Source: Crassaminicella thermophila
GTDB taxonomy: Bacteria > Bacillota > Clostridia > Peptostreptococcales > Thermotaleaceae
NCBI RefSeq assembly: GCF_008152325.1
Contig: NZ_CP042243.1
Span: forward strand, 1,493,026-1,557,025
Direction: 5' to 3'
DNA: 64,000 nucleotides
Shown here: positions 4,150 through 46,736 of the stretch, piece by piece
How the letters are laid out: the number at the start of each line of letters is the position of its first letter
Position numbering within the stretch: position 1 is the first letter of the stretch
Made by a program: the position numbers and the translations under genes
Notes under the pieces: model-generated
What the model was told of the DNA's origin: nothing
Databases searched by the model: none
The model's input: only the letters and a program-made list of their open reading frames with translations

Positions 4150-5088
4150 CTATATAAAGTTTAATTTTCCTTCAACATATTTTATTATGTCATTTTCCAG
4201 TTGAACCTTTGAACTGTATTCATTAAAATTAAACCATTTAATTTTATCATATCTTTTAAACCATGTAATCTGTCTTTTTGCATAACGCCTAGTATCTCTT
4301 TTTAAAATTCTTATAGCTTCTTCAAAATCATACATACCTTTTAAGTATTTTATAATTTCTTTGTACCCTAATCCCTTCATCGAAATGTCTTCTTCATTTA
4401 AACCCAAGCTTATCAACTTTTTCACTTCTTCAACAAGTCCTTTTTTAATTAATATGTCAACTCTTTTATTGATTCTTTCATATAACTCTTGTCTATCTCT
4501 CATTAGTCCAATTAAAACATAATTATAATCTGGATTTTCAACTAAAGCGCTGCGAAAGTCTTTTATACTTTCTCCATTTTCAATAATCTCTAAAGCTCTA
4601 ATGACTCTTTTTACATTATTAGGATGAATTCTTGCTGCTGCATCAGGATCTCTTTCTTCTAATTTTTTATGCAAATATTCATTTCCATAAGTTTGAACTT
4701 CTTTTTCTAGTTTATTTCTAAATTCCCAATTAGAAATAGTTTTTGTAAAGTCTATATCATATATAATTGAATTAACATATAAGCCTGTACCACCTACGAT
4801 AATAGGAATTTTTCCTTTTTTTAAAATTAAATCAATATATTGTTTAGCCTTTTTTTGGAACTGAACTACAGAAAAATCTTCTCTAGGATCAATTTCATCC
4901 ATTAAATAATGCGGAATACCTGCACGTTCTTCTAAAGTAGGTTTTGCACTTCCAATATCCATATGCTTATAAATTTGCATAGAATCAGCAGAAATAATCT
5001 CTCCATTTAATTTTTGAGCAATATTAATAGATATTTCTGTTTTCCCAACAGCCGTAGGTCCAACTATTATTAAAAGAGGTTTTTTCAT
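4150..5088 (-). CDS. miaA: tRNA dimethylallyltransferase MiaA
   Basis: MiaA transfers a dimethylallyl group from DMAPP to N6 of A37 in tRNAs reading UNN codons, which supplies the substrate for MiaB. The 312-aa sequence shows the P-loop GPTAVGKT (9-16), the DSMQIYKHMDIGSAKP segment that contacts substrate, and the C-terminal YAKRQITWFKR motif typical of the family. The ribosome binding site AGGAGG stands 7 nt before the ATG. It lies 12 nt downstream of mutL and shares the window with miaB, so both steps of ms2i6A formation are encoded close together. Confidence 0.97.
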   Translation of the reverse strand: MKKPLLIIVGPTAVGKTEISINIAQKLNGEIISADSMQIYKHMDIGSAKPTLEERAGIPHYLMDEIDPREDFSVVQFQKKAKQYIDLILKKGKIPIIVGGTGLYVNSIIYDIDFTKTISNWEFRNKLEKEVQTYGNEYLHKKLEERDPDAAARIHPNNVKRVIRALEIIENGESIKDFRSALVENPDYNYVLIGLMRDRQELYERINKRVDILIKKGLVEEVKKLISLGLNEEDISMKGLGYKEIIKYLKGMYDFEEAIRILKRDTRRYAKRQITWFKRYDKIKWFNFNEYSSKVQLENDIIKYVEGKLNFI

Positions 5089-11297: not shown

Positions 11298-11903
11298 TTA
11301 TGTTTTCTTTAAGAAAAATTTTTTCCAAAACGAGATTTTTTTTTGATCTAACCTATTAAGCTTTTCTTTCAATTTTGCTACTTCATATGATTTTTCCTTT
11401 AATTTCATTTTTAATCTAGCATTTTCACATATAAGAACATCTTTTTCTTTTTTAACAGTATCATTACTTTCAAATTGTTCTTTTCCTTTGATAGTAGCAT
11501 CTAAATAACTTATAATCTCCTCCTTTGTTTGTTCAAGTTTACAATTTATATTTGAACATATACCATTTATAATATCTGAAGGAGAATTTTTTTCTAAAAT
11601 AGTTAGATCATTTGAATTACTAATAGCAACTTCTCTCGTTACCGCAATTTCATCTGTAGCAGAAACAATTAACTCAGGAGATTCTAAGATAAGCTTAATC
11701 TGTTTATTGGTTAGACCTTTATTTTGAAGTTCTTTTATGTAAATAAATCTTTCTATTTCTTTGTAAGTATAATATCTTCGATTAGAATTAGTCCTTGGTA
11801 TCTGTAAGTTAAAGTCACTCTCATAGTATCTCAATACATGGGGTTCATAGCCAGTTATTTTACTCACTTCTGAAATAGAATACTTTTTATCTTTATCAAT
11901 CAC
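11298..11903 (-). CDS. MerR-type DNA-binding protein with coiled-coil tail; RacA-like candidate
   Basis: The N-terminal winged helix is MerR-like (YSISEVSKITGYEPHVLRYY at about 8-27, wing NSNRRYYT, then KGLTNKQIKLILES). A middle spacer leads to a charged coiled coil (about 150-190) and a basic, aromatic tail (KKISFWKKFFLKKT) that could lie on a membrane or bind a partner. There is no ligand or metal domain. This layout matches RacA, which anchors the chromosome at the cell pole in B. subtilis sporulation, more than a classical MerR regulator. The GTG at 11903 is preferred: GGGAGG lies 7 nt before it and overlaps the upstream ATG (11918). A perfect sigma-H promoter match lies at 11930-11956. 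The RacA function is inference. Confidence 0.7.
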   Translation of the reverse strand: MIDKDKKYSISEVSKITGYEPHVLRYYESDFNLQIPRTNSNRRYYTYKEIERFIYIKELQNKGLTNKQIKLILESPELIVSATDEIAVTREVAISNSNDLTILEKNSPSDIINGICSNINCKLEQTKEEIISYLDATIKGKEQFESNDTVKKEKDVLICENARLKMKLKEKSYEVAKLKEKLNRLDQKKISFWKKFFLKKT

Positions 11904-11929
11904 ATGCATCCCTCCCATCTAATTTATCT

Positions 11930-11956
11930 ATTCTTTATTAGTTATTCAAATCCTTT
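11930..11956 (-). promoter_or_regulatory. Sigma-H-type promoter of the MerR/coiled-coil gene
   Basis: On the minus strand AAAGGATTT (11956-11948), an 11-nt spacer and AAAGAAT (11936-11930) match the sigma-H consensus RNAGGAWWW / RNNGAAT at every fixed position. The implied transcription start, near 11922, leaves a leader of about 20 nt before the GTG start. This also argues against the ATG at 11918. The same -35 and spacer occur before spoVS. Confidence 0.7.
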
Positions 11957-12086
11957 CTTACATACACAGATTTCTATAGCAAATTCAGACATTTTTTACT
12001 ATAATTCTAATTTTTATTAAAATGTCTACTTATATTTTGTTAAAAATAATTAAATAAATTTTAGGGAAGGAATTTAAAAAGATCTT

Positions 12087-46381: not shown

Positions 46382-46642
46382 CTATCTTGGTTCTACAATT
46401 AATTTTATAGCTGTTCTTTCTTCCCCGTCTATTGTTATATCTGTAAAAGCAGGGATGCAAATTAAGTCAACACCACTAGGAGCAACAAATCCTCTCGCTA
46501 TAGCTACTGCTTTTACTGCTTGATTTAGAGCACCTGCACCAATAGCCTGGATTTCAGCGCCCCCACGTTCTCTTAAAACGCCAGCTAATGCTCCTGCAAC
46601 AGAATTTGGACTTGATTTTGCTGATACTTTTAATACTTCCAT
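46382..46642 (-). CDS. spoVS: Stage V sporulation protein S
   Basis: This 86-aa protein with the highly conserved family sequence (EVLKVSAKSSPNSVAGALAG, then GAGALNQAVKAVAIARGFV) has an Alba-like fold that probably binds nucleic acid. In B. subtilis it affects septation and the move to later sporulation stages. AGGGGG lies about 9 nt before the ATG. A sigma-H promoter match lies 68 nt upstream, as expected for this gene. It follows rny. Confidence 0.97.
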   Translation of the reverse strand: MEVLKVSAKSSPNSVAGALAGVLRERGGAEIQAIGAGALNQAVKAVAIARGFVAPSGVDLICIPAFTDITIDGEERTAIKLIVEPR

Positions 46643-46709: not shown

Positions 46710-46736
46710 ATTCTACAAATATACTAAAAATCCTTT
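46710..46736 (-). promoter_or_regulatory. Sigma-H-type promoter of spoVS
   Basis: On the minus strand AAAGGATTT (46736-46728), 11 nt and GTAGAAT (46716-46710) match RNAGGAWWW / RNNGAAT at all fixed positions. The -35 and spacer length are identical to those before the MerR/coiled-coil gene at 11298-11903. Confidence 0.7.

Follow-up and report, generated by a model that had tools for sequence, protein, structure and literature searches.

Introduction

In Bacillus subtilis, RacA is a DNA-membrane tether that aids chromosome capture and translocation (PMC6593407). RocS of Streptococcus pneumoniae combines a winged helix-turn-helix (wHTH) of the MerR type with a bipartite coil and a MinD-like helix which binds the membrane after oligomerization, and has itself earlier been compared with RacA and Par (PMC11500499, PMC13042908). 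GlnR and TnrA do not have a coiled coil; their C-terminal region contacts glutamine synthetase (PMC5859096). No description of how the chromosome is secured in the clostridial forespore was found in the literature that we searched. Here we analyse a gene from a 64,000-nt stretch of the genome of Crassaminicella thermophila (the window), where it is present in only one copy.

Results

Gene and domain organization

The open reading frame at 11298–11918 on the minus strand was confirmed. The start had to be revised: translation most likely begins at GTG 11903, giving 201 residues, rather than at ATG 11918, as the putative ribosome-binding site GGGAGGG falls between these two codons, and in relatives a GTG or ATG start codon stands at the same residue. 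The features are as follows.

11298–11903, minus strand: coding sequence, 201 residues, GTG start at 11903 (most likely); MerR-type wHTH, linker, coiled coil and amphipathic basic tail
11670–11903, minus strand: wHTH, residues 1–78 (Pfam MerR_1, 1.3e-21; AlphaFold pLDDT mostly 92–97; Z 9–12 against MerR-family structures including RacA)
11586–11666, minus strand: linker, residues 80–106, predicted disordered and poorly conserved (pLDDT below 50 over most of it; orthologue alignment)
11469–11582, minus strand: first coil helix, residues 108–145, variable in sequence (alignment and AlphaFold)
11370–11450, minus strand: strongly conserved coil block, residues 152–178, KEKDVLICENARLKMKLKEKSYEVAKL, inside helix 148–197 (invariant or near-invariant columns in two alignments)
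11301–11336, minus strand: C-terminal tail ISFWKKFFLKKT, residues 190–201, putative membrane-targeting helix of MinD/RocS type (residue pattern, orthologues and the MinD of the same genome)
11910–11916, minus strand: putative ribosome-binding site GGGAGGG (sequence; a G-rich site before the start is also kept in relatives)
11930–11956, minus strand: sigma-H promoter with −35 AAAGGATTT (11956–11948) and −10 AAAGAAT (11936–11930) (consensus match and conservation in orthologues)
11971–11986, minus strand: conserved element GAATTTGCTATAGAAA upstream of the promoter; from the G of its TTTG to the AGGA of the −35 region the distance is 26 bp (fixed spacing in relatives)

The amino terminal part belongs to the MerR-type wHTH superfamily, with 76.8 bits for MerR_1 (PF13411) against a Pfam gathering cut-off of 21.6. 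An AlphaFold2 model built on 44 window and locus sequences (mean pLDDT 83) predicts the wHTH at residues 1–78, disorder at 80–106 and two helices at 108–145 and 148–197, followed by a short tail. The core motif of the coil block was found in all 86 orthologues. No effector-binding domain or motif follows the HTH among the Pfam or NCBIfam matches, so the protein does not qualify as a classical MerR regulator; beyond the N-terminal MerR_1 hit the Pfam search returned only chance matches to the coil. The initial description, in which a MerR-type DNA-binding head is joined to a long coiled coil and a basic aromatic tail and an effector domain is lacking, is thus borne out.

The C-terminal tail

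Near the C-terminus, two hydrophobic pairs two residues apart occur in 82 of the 86 orthologues (for example FWKKIF and FLKRIF), compared with 6% of shuffled tails, and the pattern is not found in the coil ahead of the tail. The MinD protein of the same genome ends in GFVSKLKRLFGMK. The hydrophobic moment of the tails, 0.52, is barely above that of shuffled tails (0.47) and does not discriminate, so the amphipathic character is argued from the residue pattern. Judged by this pattern, the tail looks like a membrane-targeting helix of the MinD/RocS type, a likeness overlooked at first reading, and its resemblance to this anchor suggests direct attachment to the membrane.

Promoter and upstream sequence

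At each fixed base, the arrangement AAAGGATTT-N11-AAAGAAT agrees with RNAGGAWWW / RNNGAATWW, the consensus for sigma-H (PMC8510167). A lone match is weak by itself, as 1.6 matches to so loose a consensus are expected by chance on each strand of the A+T-rich window. The pattern AGGAWW-N15/16-GAAT, however, lies upstream of 46 of the 86 non-redundant orthologues (0.3 in shuffles), and a relaxed pattern upstream of 64 of the 86 (1.9 in shuffles). It is for this conservation, not for the single match, that we accept the sigma-H promoter, and with it the initial claim of a match at all fixed positions. The gene has its own promoter and its neighbours are housekeeping genes; membership in an operon was therefore rejected.

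Further sigma-H-like sites are present on the minus strand at window positions 4173, 35427, 45446, 46736 and 60448. For hfq, genes resembling xerD and purB, and spoVS, the distance from the site to the gene is 68–94 bp; the remaining site lies about 200 bp ahead of a gene for aspartokinase. On the other strand the strict pattern was not matched. The minCD genes of B. subtilis are sigma-H dependent, and the same consensus precedes minCD in the C. thermophila genome. It also precedes spoVS (46382–46642), with the promoter at 46736. In Bacillus thuringiensis, spoVS is sigma-H dependent (PMC8510167).

The exact form of GAATTTGCTATAGAAA occurs once in the genome, and its near-copies are spread across the chromosome; a centromere-like array was rejected on this ground. 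Nor were the near-copies of this element, the only one searched, clustered near the origin, and no clustered target site was identified in this way. RacA itself binds ram sites proximal to the origin. The Spo0A core of Clostridioides difficile and B. subtilis is TGTCGAA, with G2, C4 and G5 being critical (PMC3485338). A Spo0A box is a doubtful identity for the upstream element: this genome reads TATAGAA at the place of the core, and TGACGAA stands there only in a few Alkaliphilus-like relatives.

The upstream element could be an operator, and this bears on the main rival of a tethering function: a transcription regulator of the sporulation stage, made under sigma-H, whose MerR head would act at one or a few promoters while the coil only dimerizes the protein and the tail tunes its location or partner binding. 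It is the main rival because, in sequence, the HTH is nearest to those of GlnR, TnrA and other MerR regulators. The absence of an effector domain, the single exact occurrence of the upstream element, the conserved membrane-type tail and the disordered linker of 27 residues between head and coil, which is unlike classical MerR dimers, argue against such a regulator, and we regard it as unlikely, though worth serious consideration.

Comparison with RacA

The predicted HTH superposes on that of RacA (5i44) with Z 10.9 and an rmsd of 1.6 Å over 68 of 68 residues. This fit is not specific for RacA: GlnR (11.8) and MtaN (11.7) score as high, and CadR is also tied. The window protein gave no match up to E 1 with the RacA models NF009646–NF009649 (NCBIfam). 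As positive controls, a B. cereus RacA sequence matched NF009646 over residues 1–180 of 180 with 396 bits and a B. subtilis RacA passed the cut-off of NF009648. None of the 291 class genomes reached this cut-off, whereas B. subtilis, scanned as a control, did.

In a profile comparison with RacA only the HTH aligns (E 1e-4, probability 56%). For the coil, the score of 15.2 against a shuffled maximum of 14.3 (probability 1%) is not significant; a K..DV motif stands in register in both coils within this non-significant alignment. RacA tails such as KRRKMIFSIFGL and KKRRMMSFFGF are related in character to the tail of the window protein. We know of no test of the role of these RacA tails.

A true RacA orthologue, with the origin anchored by a coil that binds DivIVA as in B. 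subtilis, would account for the same order of parts, the sigma-H promoter, the basic aromatic tail, the 1.6 Å superposition and the K..DV register, and a DivIVA gene is present in the C. thermophila genome. With no match to any RacA model, no class genome at the RacA cut-off, a profile alignment confined to the HTH and a coil similarity that is not significant, we consider this reading very improbable. The window protein is a relative of RacA within the MerR fold, and is not RacA by the family test, given the missing model match and the tie of its HTH with GlnR and MtaN. The RacA likeness seen initially thus stands for the architecture (HTH fold, disordered linker, coil, basic aromatic tail) and fails for family membership. 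The comparison of HTH and tail with RacA, which the initial annotation had proposed, gave a fold that superposes and a tail that is likewise basic and aromatic, with GlnR and MtaN being as close to the HTH as RacA is.

Distribution and link to sporulation

Orthologues were defined as full-length matches with E <1e-50, a cut-off of our own, in a sample of 198 genomes of the order. Such an orthologue is present in 37 genomes. Named carriers of the gene include members of Geosporobacter, Thermotalea, Anaerosolibacter, Alkaliphilus, Natronincola, Tissierella and Caloranaerobacter. SpoIVA was found in 36 of the 37 carriers, compared with 87 of the 198 genomes overall (Fisher p about 2e-14, uncorrected for relatedness). 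The remaining carrier, a genome 76% complete (G003), has SpoVAD and sigma-G, so that spore genes accompany the orthologue in 37 of 37 cases, in line with the initial expectation that the gene would occur in other spore-forming Clostridia and not in non-spore formers. At the class level, strong or weaker homologues were found in 30 sampled genomes, and every one of these has SpoIVA. Within the order, 51 genomes have SpoIVA without the gene, and many of these belong to a single family (f4); the gene is therefore not essential for clostridial sporulation in general.

In most loci the gene is flanked by cheR on one side and miaB/mutS on the other, with a varying number of housekeeping genes in between. 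The order cheR – gene – miaB/mutS is kept across Thermotaleaceae, Natronincolaceae and Tissierellia, and this recurrence argues for vertical inheritance. Presence mainly in phages had been named at the outset as an outcome that would speak against a sporulation role; a scan of viral contigs found no relative of the gene. Phage origin was rejected on this result and because the match to phrog_11671 is confined to the HTH. Plasmid origin was rejected as well, the sole plasmid match being a chromosomal-type segment in Geosporobacter ferrireducens. On this 'plasmid' (NZ_CP017270.1) the gene lies together with cmk, ispH, miaB and mutS, and the sequence overlaps the chromosome end; it is probably a misassembled piece of the chromosome.

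Two members of one genus differ in the state of the gene. One (G022) has an intact gene together with SpoIVA, SpoVAD and sigma-G. The other (G033, a draft 86% complete) is without all three, and its copy at the same locus is frameshifted by an internal deletion and has lost the C-terminus. This contrast is consistent with a gene that becomes useless once sporulation is lost. Taken together, the conserved sigma-H promoter, the spore genes of all carriers, the decay in G033 and the absence from viral contigs bear out the sporulation link that had been inferred at first, and we consider it well supported.

The same evidence bears on a general chromosome or nucleoid tether of the RocS kind, which would also act in vegetative growth and merely possess a sigma-H promoter. 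The protein has the three-part plan of RocS, namely a MerR wHTH, a coil with a conserved module and a MinD-like helix (PMC11500499). RocS-like_C (DUF536, PF04394) was not among the Pfam hits for the window protein up to E 1 or for four orthologues up to E 10, in searches whose HMMER filters drop most weak matches. Confinement to genomes with spore genes, and decay where these are missing, argue further against a general role, which we think improbable.

In the C. thermophila genome itself, spoIVA (1291918–1293394, outside the window) is divided into a frame of 395 residues and one of 99 residues in a different phase, whereas sigG and spoVAD are intact; the split is either a genuine lesion or due to an error in sequencing. 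Other chromosomal proteins with a MerR head, a coil and a basic tail were seen in Coprococcus catus (L110) and in further clostridial families (L201–L213), the sampled genomes of the latter group all being SpoIVA-positive. Short MerR-coil proteins on small contigs (L224–L226), one of them (L224) near a replication-initiator-like gene, are reminiscent of the Par partition protein of pSK1. At one locus (L199) the MerR head of the tether-candidate family, downstream of cheR, continues in-frame into a STAS-like (anti-anti-sigma-like) domain.

Discussion

Proposed function

We propose that the window protein is a sporulation-specific DNA-membrane tether, working like RacA of B. subtilis and built like RocS of the pneumococcus, and assign this reading a probability of about 0.58. 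Sigma-H would turn the gene on at entry into sporulation, as the conserved promoter indicates. The coil would dimerize the protein and the wHTH, whose fold is predicted, would bind chromosomal DNA. The short amphipathic tail of MinD/RocS type, as its sequence suggests, would enter the membrane once at least two copies are joined. This would fix the chromosome to the membrane, presumably in the polar region, and so lead to its capture in the forespore. Such a tether might possibly do the job of RacA without DivIVA.

More tentatively, and as a possibility rather than an expectation, many Clostridia might anchor the chromosome of the future forespore by direct membrane binding via a MinD-type tail, an independent route to the task that RacA performs through DivIVA in Bacillus. 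Further versions may be represented by the protein families with MerR head, coil and basic tail seen elsewhere in the Clostridia. The present gene is single-copy, has a conserved sigma-H promoter and is confined to genomes that carry spore genes; its product combines a DNA-binding head with a tail of membrane type, which makes it a direct candidate for deletion and tagging.

Comparison with known systems

With RacA, the protein shares the MerR-type wHTH with a superposable fold, the disordered linker, the coiled coil and the basic aromatic C-terminus; like RacA it appears to be sporulation-specific, as judged from its conserved promoter and its distribution among spore formers. It differs in HTH sequence (13–15% identity), in the coil block, which reads ENA-L-M-KEK-YE compared with DVV-YQLLQHRREMEE in RacA, and in a tail that is closer to the MinD/RocS anchor. 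GlnR and TnrA have the closest solved HTH domains by sequence and are among the closest by fold, whereas a long coil and a tail are present in the window protein.

RocS and Par of plasmid pSK1 share with it the MerR-type wHTH, an oligomerizing coil with a conserved second module and the C-terminal MinD-like amphipathic helix, which binds the membrane in RocS and is recognized by its residue pattern in the window protein. RocS acts in vegetative, non-spore-forming cocci, whereas the window protein has a sporulation promoter and the distribution of a spore-former gene. In its predicted parts, the whole protein resembles a RocS that has been placed under a sporulation promoter. If the proposed function is true, it would join RacA, RocS and Par in one recurring design, in which DNA is tethered to the membrane by a head, a coil and a tail.
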